Assembly (NCBI RefSeq): GCF_002933955.1
Contig: NZ_BEWW01000291.1
Span: 1 to 64,000 of the forward strand
DNA: 64,000 nt
Source of the DNA: Prevotella sp. MGM2
GTDB lineage: Bacteria; Bacteroidota; Bacteroidia; Bacteroidales; Bacteroidaceae
Direction of reading: 5' to 3'
Positions within the stretch are counted from its first letter, which is position 1; each line of letters begins with the position of its first letter. Shown here one piece after another: positions 817 to 9,839 of this stretch. Made by a program: the position numbers and the translations under genes. Under the pieces are notes generated by a model. It saw only the letters and a list, made by a program, of their open reading frames with translations. It was not told the DNA's origin and did no database searches.

Positions 817-1338
817 TTATTGATGTTTTTGAATTATACACTGTGCTGTTAAATAAAGAGTGGCGCGAAGATTCTCAATCGAGCCATTGTTATTGATGAC
901 ATAATCATATAGTTCATCTGGGATGTTGATACGGTCATTGTCTCGCGCTTTACGCTTATCGTCAATGTCTTTCAAATTATCTCGCTTAATCTTGATTGTC
1001 ACCAGAGAGAATGGGAAAGGAGTAGATTCTTTACTCTGTAAATTTATGAGCCCCTTTTCATCAATTACATACACACTGGGAAAGAGCGTAAGGAATTGAT
1101 CCCACTCTGTCCAGTATTCATAACCTCCGAAATTTGTGTAAGCACACATTCGACTTTGAGGAGGTACTTGGTCTGGTTTAACAAACCAATGGTCTTTTCC
1201 ATTTACCTCTCCTTTACGCATAGGGCGTGTCGTATAAGACGCAATAGCAGTCCATCCCAACTGTTGTTGGAGAATCATGGAAGCGGTTGTTTTACCACTT
1301 CCAGATGCTCCTACAATACAAATAATCAACGGTTTCAT
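817..1338 (-). CDS. Guanylate kinase-like nucleotide kinase
   Basis: A 173-residue P-loop protein. Walker A is GASGSGKTT (residues 10-18), followed by SYTTRPMRKGEVNGKDHWF, which matches the GMP-binding TTRPxRxGEVxGxDYxF segment of guanylate kinases. The family converts GMP/dGMP to the diphosphate with ATP. It is slightly shorter than bacterial Gmk (about 200 residues) and the lid region is reduced. The start overlaps the end of the polymerase C-terminal half by 4 bases, which suggests translational coupling. Raising dGTP supply for phage replication is the inferred role; phosphorylation of a modified nucleotide cannot be excluded. Confidence 0.75.
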   Translation of the reverse strand: MKPLIICIVGASGSGKTTASMILQQQLGWTAIASYTTRPMRKGEVNGKDHWFVKPDQVPPQSRMCAYTNFGGYEYWTEWDQFLTLFPSVYVIDEKGLINLQSKESTPFPFSLVTIKIKRDNLKDIDDKRKARDNDRINIPDELYDYVINNNGSIENLRATLYLTAQCIIQKHQ

Positions 1339-3512
1339 ATTATCTCAATAAAATTGTTACGAGTGAGTTGGAGATTATTATGGCCAACGTAGTCACTGTA
1401 TTTCACGGTAGCCATACAGATTATCAATTTGTTCTTGGCGCCAATGAGTAAGGCACGAGCATTACGATACTCTTCAGGCCATATCACCAATTCTGCCATA
1501 TCGTTATTCTGCTGAAGGGTGACTTTGCAGAACACCTCTTGCTCCCCAGTTTTCTTACTGGTGAACTTCTTTTCCTCCATTTCTACTATGGTAGCGGCAA
1601 TAGCAGCCTTTCTACCATCTTTATCCTCACTCAAGGAGTCTTTAAGCGTAGTGTATGCTGCTCGACCACGAATCTGTTCTTTAATCGCACTGTTGTCGTA
1701 GATTCGTTTATAATCAATGGCTCCGAGACCGGACACTTTAATTTGTTGCTGAGACCAGAAATAGTGCTTGTTGCGTAAGTCATCGGGGAAATCTTTTTGT
1801 TTGATTTCAAACCCAAGGGTTTCCGCAGCCTTCTCCACAATTGCATATCTTTCAACTACCGACAGTGCGTTTTCTATCTTGTCAAAGCATCCAGCAAGGA
1901 TAAGATTGAGGACATGACGGGCATTGACTGGGCATCGTTGTACCTCATCTTCATTGTCTGGATCATCCCAGTATTGATATTTCTTGAGTTTATACTTGAA
2001 TATGCGCTCAATGAAGTTGTTAATACTGGTAAACTCACCATTTTTGTTGCGCTCGTTGATAATCCAATCAACCGCTTTTGTGCCAACCATTTTAATACGA
2101 GAAAGCGACCAGAATATCTGATTGGTTTCATAGTCCGTATAGAAACTCATCGCACTCTTGTTGATGTCCGGTGACACTACCTTAGCGTTGCTGCAAGCCT
2201 CCATTTCGGACATGATAGGTATAAGTTCTTTGTCATCAGCCCATTCCAGTGCGACCGTATAAAACGCTGTTGGATATTGTGCTTTCAGAAAAGCACCGAT
2301 ATATGAGGTAACAGCATAGGCAGTTGCGTGGGATTTATTAAAGAGGTAAGAACCGCACGCTTCAATCTGTTGCCAAATAGCAATGGCATCTTCTATCGGA
2401 CAGCCGTTCTCTTTTGCTCCTTTCAAGAATTTCTCACGCATGGCTTGAATCTTCTCAGCCTTTTTCTTTGAGATGAACTTTACGAGTTTTACACCTTCAC
2501 CTAACGAGAAGCCGCCAACTTCACGAGCAATCTGGGCAACTTGTTCCTGGTAGGTAATTAACCCGAATGTGTCATTCAGGGCGTTATAAGTACCCCAAAG
2601 ATACGTTGGCGCCACCAGTCCTTTTTTTCTGTCAACATAAGCCTCTGTTGAACCGTTTTCCAATGTCGCCGGACGAAACAGGGCGTTGGCCGCAATTAAA
2701 TCGTGAATACAAGTGGGTTGCATCTCAACCAAAAATTTCGTCATGCCTCGTGATGAAAGCTGGAATACATTCTGCGTGCAACCTTGGCGTAACAATTCGT
2801 ATGCACGTTCATTAGCCAAGTCACTTTCCACTACACCCTCCATTGTAAGGCCGGCACCATAATGCTCATTGATTAGATCAAAAGTCTGGTGAAGTTTGGA
2901 AAGCTCCTTAGTTGCCAGACAATCGTTTTTGAGCAAGCCCAGTTCATCGAGGTCGTAACCGCTATTCTCACTTACAAGGATGTCGTCAACTTTTTTAATA
3001 GGCACAAAGTCAAAACACTCCACATCTTCGCCGTCCATATCGTCCGGAGTTACAAGTAATGCTGAAGCATGGACCGAACTGGAGCGAGGTTGAAACATGA
3101 GAGTGCGTATGTCTTCAAACAGTTGCGGATAGTCATGGATAAATTTGGCAATCTTTCGGTTAGAAGCCGCAAGTTTGAAGATTTCTGTATAATCGGCACC
3201 ATCATCCTCTATAATAGCCGTTAGATAATTTACCAAAGAAGGACTGATGCGCATTGTACGAGCCACATCCTTAATAACCGCCTTGGCTTTTAGAGTGGTA
3301 AATGTGCCGGCAGAAAACACGCGCTGCTTACCATCGTGATTGTAACGGCGTTCTATGTATTCCTTAACTTCTTGACGCTTGTCTGACTGGAAATCGTTGT
3401 CCACGTCAGGAAGTGATCCGTGCTCTGTTTTTACATAGCCGGAGTCAACGAAACAGTCCAGTACTTTGACTGGATGTTTCGTATGATGTTCTTGTATTTT
3501 AGTTACCCTCAT
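1335..3512 (-). CDS. DNA polymerase III alpha subunit, C-terminal half (palm catalytic aspartates to OB fold)
   Basis: A 725-residue protein equal to the C-terminal part of a C-family replicative polymerase. After a 32-residue N-terminal extension it starts with SLPDVDNDF, the PDxDxDF motif that carries two catalytic aspartates. The third catalytic Asp is probably in LLKNDCLAT (near residue 210). Fingers and helix-hairpin-helix regions follow, and the last 100 residues look like an OB fold. The upstream palm motif GRGSAAGS is encoded by a separate gene at 5203-6936, so an active site needs both polypeptides. The 32-residue extension resembles the C-terminal piece of a split intein but lacks the terminal Asn. 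The start overlaps the PIF1-like helicase by 14 bases. Confidence 0.9.
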   Translation of the reverse strand: MRVTKIQEHHTKHPVKVLDCFVDSGYVKTEHGSLPDVDNDFQSDKRQEVKEYIERRYNHDGKQRVFSAGTFTTLKAKAVIKDVARTMRISPSLVNYLTAIIEDDGADYTEIFKLAASNRKIAKFIHDYPQLFEDIRTLMFQPRSSSVHASALLVTPDDMDGEDVECFDFVPIKKVDDILVSENSGYDLDELGLLKNDCLATKELSKLHQTFDLINEHYGAGLTMEGVVESDLANERAYELLRQGCTQNVFQLSSRGMTKFLVEMQPTCIHDLIAANALFRPATLENGSTEAYVDRKKGLVAPTYLWGTYNALNDTFGLITYQEQVAQIAREVGGFSLGEGVKLVKFISKKKAEKIQAMREKFLKGAKENGCPIEDAIAIWQQIEACGSYLFNKSHATAYAVTSYIGAFLKAQYPTAFYTVALEWADDKELIPIMSEMEACSNAKVVSPDINKSAMSFYTDYETNQIFWSLSRIKMVGTKAVDWIINERNKNGEFTSINNFIERIFKYKLKKYQYWDDPDNEDEVQRCPVNARHVLNLILAGCFDKIENALSVVERYAIVEKAAETLGFEIKQKDFPDDLRNKHYFWSQQQIKVSGLGAIDYKRIYDNSAIKEQIRGRAAYTTLKDSLSEDKDGRKAAIAATIVEMEEKKFTSKKTGEQEVFCKVTLQQNNDMAELVIWPEEYRNARALLIGAKNKLIICMATVKYSDYVGHNNLQLTRNNFIEII
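3417..3512 (-). other. Intein-C-like remnant at the start of the polymerase C-terminal half
   Basis: Residues 1-32 of the polymerase C-terminal half precede SLPDVDNDF and have no counterpart in ordinary DnaE. Their pattern, a short basic start then KVLDCFVDSGYVKTEHG before Ser, resembles intein block F plus the C-terminal splice junction. The penultimate His is present but the last residue is Gly, not the Asn or Gln needed for cyclisation. It pairs with the intein-N-like tail at 5206-5433. Inference: a decayed split intein kept as an association module, or an extreme functional variant. Confidence 0.5.
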
Positions 3513-4824
3513 AGCTCAAACTTTTGCAAATGGCGCGATATATGTCAAGATTAAACTTATTACCGTTATTCCGGCAGATGTGGTTAAAAGCGATGAGCTC
3601 TTTATCCTTAATAATGGCTCTTTTGTTAATGAAAAAATCCGTTACGATTCCTTTCATCGAAGTACATCGGCTCAATGCTACATATAACATTCCAGGCGCA
3701 AACGCATAGGGGCAATGTATAACCACGTTGTCAAAGGTAAGTCCTTGACTTTTATGAATTGTGATTGCCCATCCCAAAGTAAGTGGGAATTGCCTGCAAC
3801 TTCCTTTTTCAATTGTTTCAATCTCATTGCCATTAACTTTATATTCTCGGTCAACCCATGTGAAAGGCTCAATGATGACCTGATGGCCGGCATCCAACAT
3901 TACTCCAATTTTAGTGGCACTAATATCAGTTACTGTGCCCATAGAACCATTATAGAACCCCTGTCTGTTATCGTTTACTAAAGTCATTACGCGAGCACCA
4001 ACACGTAGCTTCAAATCCAAATCACAAGGCGCATTTTTAGGATTGAAAGCATCCTTGAACTCTGCTGTAAATGAATGTGTCGTTTCTCCTATCATTTGAC
4101 TATTGATTTTATCGGCATCGCGGCGCAATGAACAAATATGAATAGCTTGCGTATTGAAGTCTTTGCTCTCTCGATTGTCCCGCAGTTCGCTCAAATCATC
4201 AATATCCATCGGAAGAAGTTGATATTCTCGTATGCGATTTAGCATATTAACAAATCGTTCATCTTTCTGACGAAATACTTTAGTGAGTTCAACAATTTGA
4301 AAACCTACTTCTCTAAGTGCATGAGAATAGAAGAAGTAGTTTCCACGATACCACTGTCGAAGAATGATTTCCTCATTTTTCTTTATAACCGGAGGTAACT
4401 GGAACAAGTCTCCAAACAGCACGATTTGAATACCGCCAAATGGAAGTTCATTCATTCTGTAGAGCCTCAGTTTTCGATCCACATAATCCAGCACATCTGG
4501 CCGGACCATACTCGCTTCATCGATAATAAGCGTATCAAGTTTACCGAATAGTTCAAACTTATCTTGATACAGTTTTCCTTTGATAGGCGAATTTGGTCCT
4601 TGTAAGTCAAACGGGATTCCAAACAAACTATGTAATGTCACACCCCCTGCATTGATAGCTGCAATCCCGGTTGATGCAGCCACAATGATATTTTTATGAG
4701 TGTTCTCAACTATGTACTTCAGGAATGTGGTCTTCCCGGTTCCAGCCTTGCCTGTAATGAAGAGGCTGTCTGTCGTTTCTTCTATAATTTGAAACGCACG
4801 ACTCATTTCATCTGTCAATTCCAT
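3499..4824 (-). CDS. PIF1-like superfamily 1 DNA helicase
   Basis: A 441-residue ATP-dependent helicase. Walker A is TGKAGTGKTTF (about residues 24-34), followed by the PIF1-type ASTGIAA and GGVTLHSLF segments. Walker B is LIIDEASMV (about residue 97), then a motif III-like FGDLFQLPPV, a late motif HKSQGLTFDNVVI and VALSRC near the C-terminus. This is the compact PIF1/RecD2-like architecture found in many large phages (compare T4 Dda), without extra domains. The gene lies between the two halves of the polymerase gene and overlaps the C-terminal half by 14 bases. A role in origin opening, fork movement or recombination is inferred. Confidence 0.88.
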   Translation of the reverse strand: MELTDEMSRAFQIIEETTDSLFITGKAGTGKTTFLKYIVENTHKNIIVAASTGIAAINAGGVTLHSLFGIPFDLQGPNSPIKGKLYQDKFELFGKLDTLIIDEASMVRPDVLDYVDRKLRLYRMNELPFGGIQIVLFGDLFQLPPVIKKNEEIILRQWYRGNYFFYSHALREVGFQIVELTKVFRQKDERFVNMLNRIREYQLLPMDIDDLSELRDNRESKDFNTQAIHICSLRRDADKINSQMIGETTHSFTAEFKDAFNPKNAPCDLDLKLRVGARVMTLVNDNRQGFYNGSMGTVTDISATKIGVMLDAGHQVIIEPFTWVDREYKVNGNEIETIEKGSCRQFPLTLGWAITIHKSQGLTFDNVVIHCPYAFAPGMLYVALSRCTSMKGIVTDFFINKRAIIKDKELIAFNHICRNNGNKFNLDIYRAICKSLSYEGN

Positions 4825-4825
4825 A

Positions 4826-5200
4826 TCAATCGTATTTTTCTATTCTGTCATTAACGAATTTGGAAAACTCAATCAATTTGCTGGCCGTCATTTCATCGTC
4901 GGGCATATACAAATCATTGCAAAATAAATAGTTAATCGACATTAAAGACGGTTGCAATTGGACGATGCTTAACTTGCCATTATTAGCTTGTTCCATGCAA
5001 TGTGCACACATGAATTTAACACCATGACCAAAGCGTTGCCAAAGCTCATCTGTAACCATTGGAGCGTACCTATAATCATACATGTGTCCGCACGCATCAC
5101 ATTTTGTACTGTGATTTGCGACAGGTAGATTTTTACAGAAATATGGCGATGATTTCACCATTTTCTTAAACTCCTTGTATAAAATCTCGTTTTTGTTCAT
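4826..5200 (-). CDS. Hypothetical zinc-ribbon-like protein
   Basis: A 124-residue protein I do not recognise. Two pairs of cysteines, CDACG (about residue 34) and CAHCM (about residue 66), are spaced as in a four-Cys zinc ribbon. The rest is predicted to be mostly helical with an acidic C-terminal stretch. It sits 2 bases after the N-terminal polymerase half and 1 base before the PIF1-like helicase, in the block that separates the two polymerase halves. A replication accessory role is plausible from position only. Confidence 0.6.
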   Translation of the reverse strand: MNKNEILYKEFKKMVKSSPYFCKNLPVANHSTKCDACGHMYDYRYAPMVTDELWQRFGHGVKFMCAHCMEQANNGKLSIVQLQPSLMSINYLFCNDLYMPDDEMTASKLIEFSKFVNDRIEKYD

Positions 5201-5202
5201 AA

Positions 5203-6936
5203 TTATAACTCGTTGATTGTAAAAAGAATGTCTTTGTTATCAAAGATGATTTCATCACCCTCTTGGAGTTCATCAGCATATATTCTGATAGGCTCTTCGG
5301 TACCCATCCGCTTAACCATGAACTCAGCATCGTAATCGACTTTGATGATTTTGTCATTGTCTAATGTAAGCTCAAAATAACGATTAGAATCCATGTCGTT
5401 ACCAATAATGGTTGTATCTGCTGGAGACAGTCCGGCACGCTCAGGAAGTAGGAAACGCTCGAAGATGAGATTGTATTTAATAGGGTCTATGAGGGTAATT
5501 CCCAGCAAATAAAGAAGCAGAGAGCCGGCAGCAGAGCCACGTCCACAACCCACAAAAATGTTGTTCTTACGAGCCCAGTTGCAAGTATCATACTGCACAA
5601 GCAAATAGTCCACATTATCAGTAGATTCAATGATGTATTTCTCGTACTCCATCTGCTTCCGATACTGATCCATTTTATCTTTAGGGGCCAAACACTGAAG
5701 TCCTTCCTCCAAAAGTTGATTGAACATATTATGGGTGGTGCCATATTTCCCCAGTTCTTCCGGAGTCATATCGTATTTCGGCATATAGTTTCTGGTAGTG
5801 TCCATACGTCCTTCTGCATGGTCTGCAATGATGAACGTATTTTCTGCACATTCACGGAATAATTCTTCTATATCCCAGTCTTCTCCGAATAGGGCCTCAA
5901 ACAAAGCATAATGCTCATCAGTGTCTTTGAAATACTGGTCGCTGCTTTGCTCGTGTGCGGCACCCTCTGCTACCTTATTGAGAATTATTTTATTCTTGGC
6001 GTCGTCGGAGTCAAGATAATACGCATCGCTAAGCAGTACAGGGCGTGGCATTTTGCTGTCGTCATACCATTCATGGAAGTATTTCTTAGCAGCTTCTAAA
6101 ACCTTGATGTCAATGCGCTCAGCTTTGTATTCAGATAAATCAACTTGATAGAAAATGCGATCAAACGCCTGTGTTAATGTTTCAACCACTTGCTTGTTAC
6201 CCACGAAAGAAGTTGGTGCGTATTTATCGAGCACAAGTGCATTGCCTTCTGCCCGATTAAGCAGTTCTGAAATATCTATGGTCTTGTTTTCTACATTATC
6301 TACCATAATCGCTTTCTGGATTCTCAGCAGGTTACGGAAACCTTGTTGCGTCTGAACATAGATCTTTGCTCCAAAATTAAATCCATCAGCCTCAACTGTA
6401 AGGGAATAACCAAACACAGGCTTGATTCCGGCAGCATCACAACCTTTTTGAAATACAAAGCAAGCGGCCATAGTATTATAGTCACATACCCCCAATGCGG
6501 TATGCCCTAAATACTTCGCTTTACGAATCCATTCCTCCGGCATAAAGCTGCCATTCAAGAGTTCAAAGGGAGTATGCACCCCAAGATTTACAAATGGGAT
6601 GTCATGTTGTAACTGGGCCCGCTTACCAACGTACTTTAAGATATTCAATTTGAAATCTTGATTTAGGTTGTGATAGTAGAAATTGTCGCCGAATTTGAAA
6701 ATGATATTCTCAATGCCATCATTCAGCAATTCTTCTGGACGCACCAAACTATTAAAGATAAAGTTACCGTCCGTATCTTTGCGGAAGATTGAATTGTAGG
6801 TTGAACGCTGGGTGTCTTGGAAATACGCCTTACCAAACCCAGGAATATCAATAACTTCTGCATCTATTTGTGTGTACTGAATTTTGTTCTTCTCCAGCCA
6901 CTCATACAATTCGATTATTCTATCTGATTTTGCCAT
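5203..6936 (-). CDS. DNA polymerase III alpha subunit, N-terminal half (PHP and first part of palm)
   Basis: A 577-residue protein equal to the N-terminal part of a C-family polymerase. An N-terminal extension of about 115 residues precedes a PHP domain starting FVNLGVHTPFELLNGSF; bacterial DnaE has HxHS here, so the first metal His is Gly, and the usual TDHGNM is CDYNTM. The palm motif GRGSAAGS is at about residues 465-472, followed by FERFLLPERA. The PDxDxDF motif should come next but is encoded at 1335-3512. Instead a 76-residue intein-N-like tail ends the protein. An upstream in-frame Met at 7002 exists, but the Met at 6936 (MAKSDRIIEL) is preferred because it overlaps the HNH gene by only 17 bases. 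Confidence 0.88.
   Translation of the reverse strand: MAKSDRIIELYEWLEKNKIQYTQIDAEVIDIPGFGKAYFQDTQRSTYNSIFRKDTDGNFIFNSLVRPEELLNDGIENIIFKFGDNFYYHNLNQDFKLNILKYVGKRAQLQHDIPFVNLGVHTPFELLNGSFMPEEWIRKAKYLGHTALGVCDYNTMAACFVFQKGCDAAGIKPVFGYSLTVEADGFNFGAKIYVQTQQGFRNLLRIQKAIMVDNVENKTIDISELLNRAEGNALVLDKYAPTSFVGNKQVVETLTQAFDRIFYQVDLSEYKAERIDIKVLEAAKKYFHEWYDDSKMPRPVLLSDAYYLDSDDAKNKIILNKVAEGAAHEQSSDQYFKDTDEHYALFEALFGEDWDIEELFRECAENTFIIADHAEGRMDTTRNYMPKYDMTPEELGKYGTTHNMFNQLLEEGLQCLAPKDKMDQYRKQMEYEKYIIESTDNVDYLLVQYDTCNWARKNNIFVGCGRGSAAGSLLLYLLGITLIDPIKYNLIFERFLLPERAGLSPADTTIIGNDMDSNRYFELTLDNDKIIKVDYDAEFMVKRMGTEEPIRIYADELQEGDEIIFDNKDILFTINEL
5206..5433 (-). other. Intein-N-like remnant at the end of the polymerase N-terminal half
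   Basis: The last 76 residues of the N-terminal polymerase half follow FERFLLPERA and are absent from normal DnaE. SPADTTII matches intein block A spacing (Thr at position 6 if Ser is residue 1). FELTLDNDKIIKV, then DAEFMV, then ADELQEGDEII match intein block B and the following strand. The conserved TxxH of block B reads DxxA, and no Cys is present. The tail resembles the N piece of a naturally split Hint domain with catalytic residues lost. The partner piece is at 3417-3512. Confidence 0.55.
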
Positions 6937-7450
6937 GTGTAGTAATAGAGTTACGGTAAAACCAATTATTGATATATCGCCAAATTGTGATTCTTGATAC
7001 ACAATACCTTTTAGCTAAATCAACCAAAGTGTATTTACCTGTTTTATACAATTTCTTAACTTCTTTCACTTGCTCGTCTGTCAGCTTACTCATTTCTCCT
7101 TTTATTGACGATCTTCTGATGTTCTCGCGCTGTGAAACAATTTCAAGATTAGAAACACAATTATTAGATTTACAGCTATCCAAATGATCAACAACTAATC
7201 CAGAAGCAGGGTCATAATCTAAAAATGCCATAGCTACTAAATTATGGATATTCTTATATGTAACAATCCCATCTTTGCATAGAGACACACGGGCATATTT
7301 ATGGTTAAAATTAGGCGTCAAAATGCGACCTCTATGCCGCCGGCTTCCTTTATTGCTATTCACAAATCTATCCAAACTACGCACGAGCCCCATTGAAGAT
7401 ACATCATACAAGCCTTCATATCCCGGTACTGCTTTCCATTCTTCATTCAT
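6920..7450 (-). CDS. NUMOD4/HNH homing endonuclease with C-terminal helix-turn-helix
   Basis: A 176-residue free-standing homing endonuclease. The N-terminus is NUMOD4 (EEWKAVPGYEGLYDVSSMG). The HNH core follows (HNLVAMAFL, then VDHLDSCKSNNCVSNLEIV with the catalytic His and the Asn-rich segment). A C-terminal DNA-binding helix-turn-helix (YTLVDLAKRYCVSRITIWRYI) completes the layout, as in T4-type SegD/HNH elements. It sits between primase and the split polymerase, overlapping the polymerase start by 17 bases. It is probably a selfish gene and may have taken part in splitting the polymerase. Confidence 0.9.
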   Translation of the reverse strand: MNEEWKAVPGYEGLYDVSSMGLVRSLDRFVNSNKGSRRHRGRILTPNFNHKYARVSLCKDGIVTYKNIHNLVAMAFLDYDPASGLVVDHLDSCKSNNCVSNLEIVSQRENIRRSSIKGEMSKLTDEQVKEVKKLYKTGKYTLVDLAKRYCVSRITIWRYINNWFYRNSITTHGKIR

Positions 7451-8478
7451 ATATTACCTAATTTATATTCTATGGGTGTATATAAATTATAAGCAAAGCT
7501 GTCATAAATTGACCAAAAATCACTTTCATCCCAATCTTTACCTTCACCTACGAGTTTGGCAATCATTACATTGTCAAAGTACTCGTTCAATTTGTCTGCG
7601 GCCACGTTGATTGCGTCTGATGCGTCCGTATCGTAACCTATGATGATGTCGTGGACGCCCTTACTTTGCAGTTTATAAATCTGGGCATCGCTGATTTTCT
7701 TTCCAAATGTGCAGACTGCCACTATACGATGGTTGTCATACAAATCCAGTTTGCGAGTAAGGGCAATGACATCAAATATACCCTCAACTAATATCACGGT
7801 GTCAGTCTCATCCTCAATTATGGAATCATAATTGTATAGGAGCTTGACAAAATCATTTTCAACACTATTGTTGTATCGACGAATCTGATATTTGTTGTTA
7901 CGTTTTGCTTTGTCGTTGTATTCATCAATATCTTGTTTGCTCCATACATGTCTGGAGACATATCCTACAATATCGCCATCATCATATATCGGAAAAACCA
8001 CATAATCGTCAAACTTAAAGTTTAGGCCGCGAGTTGTCCCGACAGGGAAATAGGCATAATCGTCAGTGGTAAAGCCACGAGATTTCAAATATGGGTTTTT
8101 GAAACACCGTTTCCAAGATTCTGGCATTTCTACGACCACAAGCTCATCATCAATCTCATCCTCTTCCAGATTGAAGAACTCCGGTACTTCTACTGGAGTA
8201 AATTTAGCTGTGTCCTTAACCTGTAAATCAGACCGACCAATTTCTTCTACAAATCGGTTAATGTCCTTACAAGTTCTACCACAAGAAAAGCAATGTGCCA
8301 TACCGAATACTTTGCCATTCTTTTCAGGACCAACATAAATTCCAAGTTTACCACCGGTCTTACCGCACCAAATACATTCAGGGACTATTAGGTTTTTACG
8401 ACCGCCGTCCAGCCTTGCGTGAAGCTCAGCCTGAAGCTCACGAATCAAGTATTCTTTATCTTCCTTACTTATATACAT
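7447..8478 (-). CDS. DnaG-type DNA primase
   Basis: A 343-residue primase that makes RNA primers for replication. The N-terminal zinc finger has CIWCG (residues 35-39) and CFSCG (about 63-67), as in phage T7/DnaG-type primases. A TOPRIM domain follows, with the Glu motif VEGIFDVIAL (about residue 226) and the metal-binding DTDAS (about 277). It is shorter than bacterial DnaG (about 600) because no C-terminal helicase-binding domain is seen. The gene is 14 bases downstream of the DnaB-like helicase, its expected partner, and overlaps the HNH endonuclease by 4 bases. Confidence 0.88.
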   Translation of the reverse strand: MYISKEDKEYLIRELQAELHARLDGGRKNLIVPECIWCGKTGGKLGIYVGPEKNGKVFGMAHCFSCGRTCKDINRFVEEIGRSDLQVKDTAKFTPVEVPEFFNLEEDEIDDELVVVEMPESWKRCFKNPYLKSRGFTTDDYAYFPVGTTRGLNFKFDDYVVFPIYDDGDIVGYVSRHVWSKQDIDEYNDKAKRNNKYQIRRYNNSVENDFVKLLYNYDSIIEDETDTVILVEGIFDVIALTRKLDLYDNHRIVAVCTFGKKISDAQIYKLQSKGVHDIIIGYDTDASDAINVAADKLNEYFDNVMIAKLVGEGKDWDESDFWSIYDSFAYNLYTPIEYKLGNI

Positions 8479-8492
8479 AACACCTCCGTATA

Positions 8493-9839
8493 TTAAAGAT
8501 TGGCTGTTCTTTGTCGGTCGAAAAACCTTTCATGGTCATAATCCGTAGCTATCTTGAATGTATCTCCCTTGGGGAAGAAACGGCTCTTGGCAATATGGAT
8601 TCTCATTGTCTTTTCTCGACGCTCATTTGCGGATTGATTGAGAGTAATCAAGTGAGTAAGTGGCTGGGCGATTCCTTTGGCCTCCGATGACGAGTATTCC
8701 GTTAATACGTTCTTTTCGTCATTTACCCAATCAGGGTTTTCTATGCGTGCCTGATAAGTCGTCACCACCCAGACTTCTTCTTCACTGGCAATATCCTTTA
8801 AGTCATTTGCCACAGCAATGCGTTTCAGGCGCTCTCCGCTATCTCCATACTTACGACCAGATGAATCGTTCAATAAGTCCATAGAATCAATGAGGATAAT
8901 ATCCGGTTTAACGCCATAGTTCTTGCGAAACTCAGCAATAGCTTCCTTGATATTGATAGTGGAAACATGCTGATTGAATTTTGGATAACTTCTGACGTAC
9001 AATTTGCCGGCTATGCTTTCCAATTCTTTAGTAAAAGCATCCATGTCCTTATCCTTGATAAAGCCCTTTTCATAACTATAGGCATTACAAGCAACAAGTG
9101 CCGCAGAGTAAGCGTTTTCAACTTCCTCTCGGCTACCTTCTAACTGGAAATGGAGTACGTTAAAACCGTCAATACAAGCCTGTGAGCCTATCCAACGAGC
9201 TGCATGACTTTTACCAACACCAGTTGGAGCCAAGATACAAGAAAGTTGACCACGCAAATCCCTATCTTGGTTAAGGTTGTCCAGCTCATCAATATAAAAG
9301 CGTGTGATAGCACGTATAGTACCACGGGAATTGTTTTTAGCACGATTTTGAATATGCCGTGTTGTAAAAGTATCAATCACATCGGTATAAGTTGATTCGG
9401 TTAATGAGAATGTACGCATCCAATCCACGTGCTTTGCAAGCAGTTGTTGGGCACTTTCTAACCCTTCTCGATTATAAACCTCACCGGCTTTCTTATATGT
9501 TTTCTGAAATTCAACACGTTTTAGATATTCTTCGAGCAAGCCAAGACATTCATCAGTAGCCAATGCTTCACCGTTATCATAGGCTTCCTTCCAAAATCTG
9601 AGGGCACCATTCTTGCCAGCGAGCTTTTGCTGAATAATTGAGTAATTCGGCACTCGTCGATATTCTCTATAATAGTCCTTAAAAGCTTTGAGAACAGCTG
9701 CTGTATTGCGATCTGGGAGATGTTCTTCTTCCAAATGCTCGCATACCATCGAAAGTATATAACTGTCCTCTATACATGTGATAAACAAATCTTCGATGAA
9801 AGCTTCCGAAAGGACGTTTGTTTTATTGTTTGCTGACAT
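8493..9839 (-). CDS. DnaB-like replicative DNA helicase
   Basis: A 448-residue RecA-fold helicase. An N-terminal helical domain of about 170 residues precedes the motor domain, with Walker A APTGVGKSH (about residue 207), the HFQLEGSREEV segment, Walker B DIILIDSMDLL and a downstream VVTTYQARI segment. The layout matches phage DnaB/gp41-type hexameric helicases that unwind DNA 5'-3' and work with primase. The primase gene is immediately downstream and the overlap with the upstream gene is 17 bases, so the three genes probably share a transcript. Confidence 0.85.
   Translation of the reverse strand: MSANNKTNVLSEAFIEDLFITCIEDSYILSMVCEHLEEEHLPDRNTAAVLKAFKDYYREYRRVPNYSIIQQKLAGKNGALRFWKEAYDNGEALATDECLGLLEEYLKRVEFQKTYKKAGEVYNREGLESAQQLLAKHVDWMRTFSLTESTYTDVIDTFTTRHIQNRAKNNSRGTIRAITRFYIDELDNLNQDRDLRGQLSCILAPTGVGKSHAARWIGSQACIDGFNVLHFQLEGSREEVENAYSAALVACNAYSYEKGFIKDKDMDAFTKELESIAGKLYVRSYPKFNQHVSTINIKEAIAEFRKNYGVKPDIILIDSMDLLNDSSGRKYGDSGERLKRIAVANDLKDIASEEEVWVVTTYQARIENPDWVNDEKNVLTEYSSSEAKGIAQPLTHLITLNQSANERREKTMRIHIAKSRFFPKGDTFKIATDYDHERFFDRQRTANL

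Follow-up and report, generated by a model that had tools for sequence, protein, structure and literature searches.

The window analysed here, a 64,000-nucleotide stretch of a contig from Prevotella sp. MGM2 (NZ_BEWW01000291.1), carries on its minus strand a replication block in which a phage DNA polymerase III alpha subunit (Pol III alpha) is encoded as two separate halves. The N-terminal half (N-half) ends with a tail and the C-terminal half (C-half) starts with a head. Sequence comparisons and predicted models suggest, with a probability that we put at about 0.7, that these two pieces are relics of an intein Hint domain which no longer splices and which would clasp the halves into a two-subunit, unligated polymerase. 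The features concerned are the following:

5206..6936, minus strand: Pol III alpha N-half, 577 amino acids (aa), with the PHP domain and the first part of the palm including GRGSAAGS; stop codon at 5205-5203.
5206..5433, minus strand: N-tail, G502-L577, a putative 76-residue splicing-dead Hint (intein) relic according to profiles, alignment and a model of the tail.
1338..3512, minus strand: Pol III alpha C-half, 725 aa, with catalytic palm, fingers and HhH; stop codon at 1337-1335.
3417..3512, minus strand: C-head, M1-G32, 32 residues, taken as the relic of an intein C-piece, with the block F-like motif VLDCFVDSGY.
3399..3407, minus strand: Asp-Val-Asp (codons 36-38), including two catalytic Asp; D36 comes fourth after the relic.

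The Pfam domain DNA_pol3_alpha is shared out between the two proteins: the N-half matches profile positions 3-101 (1.6e-27) and the C-half positions 93-260 (1.8e-25). PHP lies in the N-half and the finger and HhH domains lie in the C-half, so that the pair carries the DNA_pol3_alpha, PHP and finger domains and the Asp triad of a C-family DNA polymerase (Pol III alpha/DnaE). The break comes after FERFLLPERA, where uninterrupted relatives such as the DnaE of the same assembly continue directly (FERFLNPDRISLPDIDVDF), and the C-half resumes at SLPDVDNDF. The sequence-only reading had placed the break at this point, with a tail of 76 and a head of 32 residues, and both the break and the limits of the pieces (5433..5206 and 3512..3417) are exact. 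It had also placed the active site in two proteins. This holds for the palm, which covers both since the N-half provides PHP and GRGSAAGS, and not for the metal ligands. D36 and D38 of the C-half align without gaps with residues 463 and 465 of Taq DnaE, and we take these two, together with D197 (LLKND), to be the catalytic triad; judged by sequence, all metal ligands are thus in the C-half. A second split polymerase, 44-51% identical, is found in the same assembly on another contig (C283, locus L014; loci are designated below by such numbers).

Are the two pieces really derived from an intein? A profile search against inteins and Hint domains had been set beforehand as the check, and it does find Hint similarity. 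With a profile of 49 aligned tails (A3, drawn from the 68 tails left of 69 extracted once L061:5276, wrongly matched by the pattern, had been discarded; L003, L004 and L104, whose tails are short, are not in A3), inteins are the top five of 14 PDB matches up to E 10 (E 0.023-0.14), in block-B register. Intein_splicing is the commonest Pfam family among single tails (33/49, best 5.4e-5), alongside DrmE_C (24/49) and E1-E2_ATPase (5/49). The block-B similarity is weak, under the curated Pfam cut-off; a motif-complete intein from this group of phages scores just 23.7 bits with this family. NCBIfam gives weak matches to the tails, DrmE_fam at best 0.0031 and an intein-containing Tes model in 5/49 (best 0.015).

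The structural evidence comes mainly from a related contig, L166, in which N-half, tail, head and C-half form one reading frame, the stop of the tail being gone and the ATG of the head reading ACC. Both pieces match the family profiles (tail 9.5e-29, head 7.2e-12), which makes L166 a true relative. Its 140-residue in-line domain was predicted by AlphaFold2 from 53 rows, the N-part being represented by an alignment and the head by a single sequence because mixed N and C alignments were misaligned; the mean predicted local distance difference test (pLDDT) score is 71, with residues 41-70 at 92-94. In Foldseek, inteins and Hedgehog Hint domains fill the top 30 of 50 rows for this model, with E 0.03 at best and no row below 0.001. 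In VIA, the top 46 of 50 rows are Hint, while P-type ATPase A-domains trail at Z 2.8; the best Z is 7.3 (5bkh, 66 residues, 3.1 A), and a Z below 8 can reflect a merely common arrangement. The weight of the fold evidence is therefore in the uniform Hint list and its agreement with the sequence profile. The predicted Hint fold comprises about one half-domain, residues 25-105, which match residues 52-114 of the Npu DnaE intein. As the best rows are confined to the later portion of an intein, most of the N-terminal part seems to be gone. The tail of the window alone gives a fold of lower confidence (63), for which the top ten Foldseek rows are Hint, Npu DnaE first, with E above 1. Sequence profiles and predicted models thus support a Hint/intein origin of tail and head, as the sequence-only reading had proposed. 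A distant relative, L086, also displays an in-line form devoid of splicing residues, with a tail profile match of E 0.008 at the junction. The single-chain polymerase of Bacteroides phage DAC22 (L006, about 5300-5480) carries at this junction an in-line insert of 59 residues; the tail profile gives no match to it, so no Hint identity is claimed for it, and the viral contig scan found no close relatives of DAC22.

Across the family, no splicing residue is conserved and splicing seems to have been lost. Residue 2 of the tail is Gly in all 49 aligned tails, preceded by Ala (37), Cys (8) or Gly (4), and the block-B His position is occupied by Ala (46) or Ser (3), the window having D-Y-D-A in place of TxxH. 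The first-residue Cys, Ser or Ala with block-B TxxH of an intein is therefore not found. The 60 heads were picked by start codon, with eight of them, which have stop inserts, coming from a hand-made list (43 make up alignment A4); residue counts concern 58 heads, L003 and L004 being left aside. The last head residue is Gly in 42, Ser in 7, Ala in 6, Arg in 2 and Lys in 1, Asn or Gln in none, and the +1 residue is Ser in 45, Ala in 8, Gln in 3, Val in 1 and Thr in 1. The C-terminal Asn/Gln followed by Cys, Ser or Thr is thus also missing, and 12/58 heads have neither Ser nor Thr at +1. Class 3 inteins have a Trp/Cys/Thr triplet with a block-F Cys as nucleophile; here such a Cys is not conserved, the F:4-like position being an invariant Asp, with a Cys one position further on in only 28/43 heads. 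The in-line domain of L166 starts with Gly and ends Arg|Gln. What had been noted for the window (Gly in place of Cys1, D-Y-D-A for TxxH, a last Gly followed by Ser) was read correctly.

Intact inteins do occur in the same polymerase. Those with Cys1, TxxH, Asn and +1 Ser lie at an FN|SH site in L014, L037, L067, L084 and L205; they were found by a pattern requiring the splicing residues, L014 having first been seen independently, and attest presence, not rate. In the C-half of L014 (11151-11993, contig C283) the intein bears HNH and all splicing motifs; L037, L067 and L084 have similar ones, and that of L205 is a mini-intein. Inserts in the C-halves of L061 and L074 were matched over their opening half only, and an intein scan covering 61 genomes pointed to three places, of which two lie in the genome of the window itself.

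The apparently dead intein halves on a split polymerase are a trait of a virus family of gut and marine bacteria. Three queries against viral contigs gave 34 loci, the best 80 and the best 78, which overlap, and three narrower ones gave 2, 2 and 0, so that the family is sampled rather than covered in full. Bacteroides phage BS-TP1 has halves 89% and 94% identical to those of the window, split with a helicase between them; its C-half, unannotated, is ended by the end of the record. Close copies are present in five bacterial genome records, including Palleniella muris and Bacteroides sp. 224. Fourteen pattern matches for the polymerase resolved into five real ones and nine by chance. The polymerases of Cellulophaga phage phi13:1 and Tenacibaculum phage Larrie are split with adjacent open reading frames (ORFs) and shorter pieces of 53 and 17 residues, and that of Chryseobacterium phage MA9V-3 is a single chain with no insert. 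In the 62 loci with both halves, some of them near-duplicates, the distance from one half to the other varies between -32 and 2532 nucleotides (nt), 18 pairs overlapping or lying at most 14 nt apart. The interval holds, in many loci, a gene of the Pif1-like helicase, methyltransferase-like or HNH kind, as judged by opening residues. Locus L104 (9498-10500) is split with a 46-residue tail and an ORF between the halves that looks GIY-YIG-like by eye; no normal head was found on its C-half.

The pieces are faithfully kept. The 84 distinct N-half junctions comprise 60 with tails of 66-130 residues, three with tails of 46-53, none with fewer than 30, and 21 single chains; a tail is thus carried by all 63 distinct split N-halves. 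When 4569 ORFs of at least 60 codons (duplicate contigs included) were scanned with the tail profile, 140 of the 141 matching ones had the polymerase motif and the remaining one is a clipped N-half copy, so that chance matching is set aside. Remote matches were obtained in Larrie (7e-4), phi13:1 (3e-3), L086 (8e-3) and L104 (2e-2), all at the junction. Ratios of nonsynonymous to synonymous differences (pN/pS) were compared in closest pairs, which are mutually non-independent: mean values are 0.120/0.614 for the tail and 0.057/0.686 for the N-core (29 pairs), 0.139/0.583 for the head and 0.044/0.742 for the C-core (16 pairs), that is about 0.2 in tail and head. Moreover, D19 and G25 of the head are invariant and 16 tail columns are conserved at 80% or more.

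We propose the following scenario. An intein would once have been inserted in a phage Pol III alpha at PER(V)/SLPD, just ahead of the catalytic Asp pair, and would have lost its splicing residues together with most of its N-terminal part, leaving about one Hint half-domain. The polymerase gene would then have been cut within this relic, with some four strands plus a helix falling to the 76-aa tail and probably the last strand to the 32-aa head. The halves would stay unligated, their tail and head strands pairing non-covalently into one small sheet close to the active site. This clasp would hold the N-half, with PHP and the first palm strands, to the C-half, with the catalytic Asps and the fingers, as a permanent two-subunit replicative polymerase. 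We infer this order of events, the pairing of tail and head, their docking role and their requirement for activity from the comparisons above.

Several observations weigh against this proposal. The tails evolve at about twice the rate of the core, and the E-values are individually modest (PDB 0.023, Foldseek 0.03). The head is placed by its alignment, its position at the junction and one low-confidence strand in the fused model; neither the C-head profile against PDB nor the C-heads against NCBIfam gave an intein match. In hhalign comparisons with five phage inteins the tails are in register at a probability of 23% and the heads give nothing. The head region of the L166 model is poor (10-residue means 49-66), the core at 92-94 being tail only, and L166 is the lone close in-line fusion contig, with a frame break near its C-terminus. 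Finally, the head of L044 differs strongly from that of L020 while their tails differ by three residues only and the two sides are 96.1% and 98.2% identical. As the head has changed beside a near-constant tail, pairing would not be strictly partner-specific.

Some of these points would suit a neutral scar, intein remnants that are tolerated while the halves assemble via the palm interface and the tails stay idle. The tails and heads change about 2-3 times faster than the core, heads appear swappable as between L044 and L020, and the pieces of the Cellulophaga and Tenacibaculum phages are shorter (53 and 17 residues). Idle remnants would nevertheless hardly be expected to show a pN/pS of about 0.2, to be lost in none of the 63 splits, to keep an invariant D19 and G25 and 16 conserved tail columns, or to be retained in line in L166 and L086, and we consider this explanation unlikely. 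An unrelated small beta-barrel insertion, of the P-type ATPase A-domain or SH3-like kind and resembling Hint by chance, would account for the DrmE_C (24/49) and E1-E2_ATPase (5/49) matches of the tails, the weak E-values and the VIA Z below 8. The top 30 Foldseek and top 46 VIA rows are nevertheless all Hint and the A-domains reach Z 2.8 against 7.3, which leaves such an insertion little credit.

Alternatively, the two halves could still be joined, either as proteins or before. A live split intein working by unusual chemistry, which the sequence-only reading had kept as an alternative, could draw on the +1 Ser of 45/58 heads, on the Cys next to the block-F-like Asp in 28/43 heads and on the Cys directly before the invariant Gly in 8/49 tails. 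Since neither junction has an invariant nucleophile (Cys, Ser or Thr), Asn or Gln, since +1 is Ala, Gln or Val in 12/58 heads and since the in-line L166 has Gly first and an Arg|Gln end, it is disfavoured to the point of being highly improbable. Joining by RNA or translation, through an intron or recoding with the pieces read in line, would fit L166, where they are in line, and the recoding that seems to occur within the head of nine related contigs. It has to bridge gaps of up to 2532 nt which may contain one or two genes, and no Rfam match at the gathering threshold was obtained in the window and seven broken-head relatives, introns included; we hold it to be scarcely tenable. The splicing-dead clasp thus remains the explanation that we prefer.

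The history of the relic appears complex. A tree was obtained by a quick method with 48 of 51 intended rows (L056, L069 and L070 being absent), with Shimodaira-Hasegawa-like approximate likelihood ratio (SH-aLRT) supports only and 10 of 45 inner branches left open; long branches are a caveat on what it says of the relic. The main clade of 31 rows (100%) groups 30 split polymerases with L166, which is placed beside the split L059 (100%), so that its fused state looks derived. The pair of split polymerases from the Cellulophaga and Tenacibaculum phages groups with insert-free single chains (96%), and L104 with the insert-free L090 (97%). A single clade of the 35 relic-bearers was rejected on this quick tree, L006 being left out (approximately unbiased test, p-AU 0.0012). 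This rejection points to repeated invasion and domestication, or to relic loss or transfer between phages.

These pieces echo natural split inteins such as Npu DnaE and gp41-1 in their break within an intein-like domain, in the size of the N-piece (about 77 residues) and C-piece (about 32), and in the Hint fold, here of predicted models. They differ from them in that the splicing residues are unconserved, the N-terminal part is mostly missing, the site lies before PDxDxD and ligation is not expected. Among systems already described, those that come closest are two from Aeromonas phages, split NrdA and split gene 43. The tails of Aeh1 NrdA reportedly derive from mobE.

The split NrdA of phage Aeh1 is active, and the 43A/43B polymerase of Aeromonas phage 25 co-purifies with polymerase activity (PMC2988022). 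As here, a phage replication enzyme made of two pieces is connected with homing endonucleases; in those phages, insertion of an endonuclease or an untranslated spacer is given as the cause of the break, whereas the tails described here would be intein-derived (PMC2988022). Arthrobacter FB24 has an inactive intein pseudogene which likewise lost its function (PMC3196547). According to its abstract, it lies outside any helicase (PMC3196547). It is not known to be retained in a working enzyme. A PolIII survey mentions intein splits in cyanobacteria along with a small number of fragmented sequences (PMC3919608), the inteins of phiCbK are whole (PMC3556154), and inteins are said to prefer conserved sites close to active sites (PMC3359363). 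Among the papers listed by our literature searches, none describes a split polymerase clasped by a dead intein.

A second peculiarity is found in relatives. In nine C-half contigs the frame of the head halts just ahead of the catalytic codons, at 7, 8 or 11 extra nt starting with TAA or TAG, as in CTG CCG [TAAGGTCG] GAT GTA GAT; in L074 the stop sits one codon later than in the others. The window has no such hairpin-stop insert. The heads concerned are:

L046:11544-11660, insert head.
L021:5931-6050, insert head.
L022:3772-3890, insert head.
L044:11597-11715, insert head.
L002:9390-9510, insert head.
L075:7174-7295, insert head, identical to that of L162.
L162:5889-6010, insert head.
L172:6001-6125, insert head.
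L074:4541-4660, insert head.

One insert is also present in the record of a named strain, Bacteroides sp. 224 (L189). Insert lengths are never multiples of three and both other frames are represented. The insert is preceded by a 10-bp stem with a 3-nt loop; in 8/9 cases the stem extends to the first base of the last codon. The 26-nt segment has a mean energy of -18.3 kcal/mol (n=9) versus -5.4 in 50 insert-free heads (p 6e-6), and a hairpin of similar kind occurs in L153 and L061, which lack the insert. Among eight rows (seven distinct, L074 excluded) all 70 cells pair, 7/10 pairs change on both sides, and 0/500 shuffles reach this covariation. Folding z-scores over 121 nt are mixed (-3.64 to +0.15 in seven insert loci; -4.30 for the control L020, with a different fold), and the hairpin claim is based on segment energies and covariation. 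A NUMOD4/HNH gene adjoins 6/8 insert heads (L162 uncounted) versus 8/52 others (Fisher p 0.0013, table [[6,8],[2,44]], with three query proteins of which two come from insert loci). Along the stretch compared between L020 and L044 (3300043080_000148 and 3300043013_000026) the sole unaligned block is 98 bp, the head, in the former and 659 bp, with an HNH gene, another head and TAAGTCG, in the latter. This natural empty/filled pair, with flanks 96-98% identical, suggests a mobile cassette.

The inserts are possible candidates for bypass of the T4 gene 60 kind or for frameshifting. T4 gene 60 is described with a take-off stem loop, an A-site stop, a coding gap of 50 nt and a homing endonuclease 5' of it (PMC5009743). 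The inserts share the stem loop, stop, gap and neighbouring endonuclease (PMC5009743), and differ in measuring 7-11 nt instead of 50, in a stem reaching to the first base of the take-off codon, and in their location at the catalytic codons of a polymerase. Taken together, a broader view can tentatively be put forward, at slightly less than even odds: Bacteroidota phages would several times have converted a dead intein, always at this catalytic site of their replicative polymerase, into a clasp, either in line or in the form of two tails, a non-splicing split intein thus holding a two-subunit polymerase; the junction would in addition host a mobile endonuclease cassette with its hairpin-and-stop bypass.

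The rest of the replication block of the window consists of the following genes, to which a guanylate-kinase-like gene and an RNase_T-family exonuclease on the minus strand are to be added:

8493..9839, minus strand: DnaB-like replicative helicase, by domain search.
7447..8478, minus strand: Toprim primase, an upstream replication gene, by domain search.
6920..7450, minus strand: NUMOD4/HNH homing-endonuclease-like gene at the primase/N-half junction, overlapping the N-half start by 17 nt.
4826..5200, minus strand: 124-aa ORF in the interval between N-half and helicase.
3499..4824, minus strand: Pif1/Dda-like helicase between both halves, overlapping the C-half start by 14 nt.

From the primase onward these genes overlap or almost abut. 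The primase of the window ends KLGNI, and the frame of its HNH gene ends GKIR, like the primase in relatives with no HNH insert. A counterpart of the helicase, an ORF with the same opening, is in the gap of many relatives. The 124-aa ORF has Cys pairs and no clear family; it is missing in BS-TP1 and, among the loci compared for their gaps, found in L015 only, whose N-half is identical to that of the window.

If the fold has been kept after the loss of splicing, a selfish element would have been exapted as the subunit interface of an essential enzyme. Natural inactive pairing tags would follow from this, while split inteins are otherwise known as ligases. The inserts, for their part, offer a small covarying candidate family of bypass elements beside T4 gene 60. 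The path from intein to dead intein to clasp can be tested directly with the in-line, split and fused relatives.

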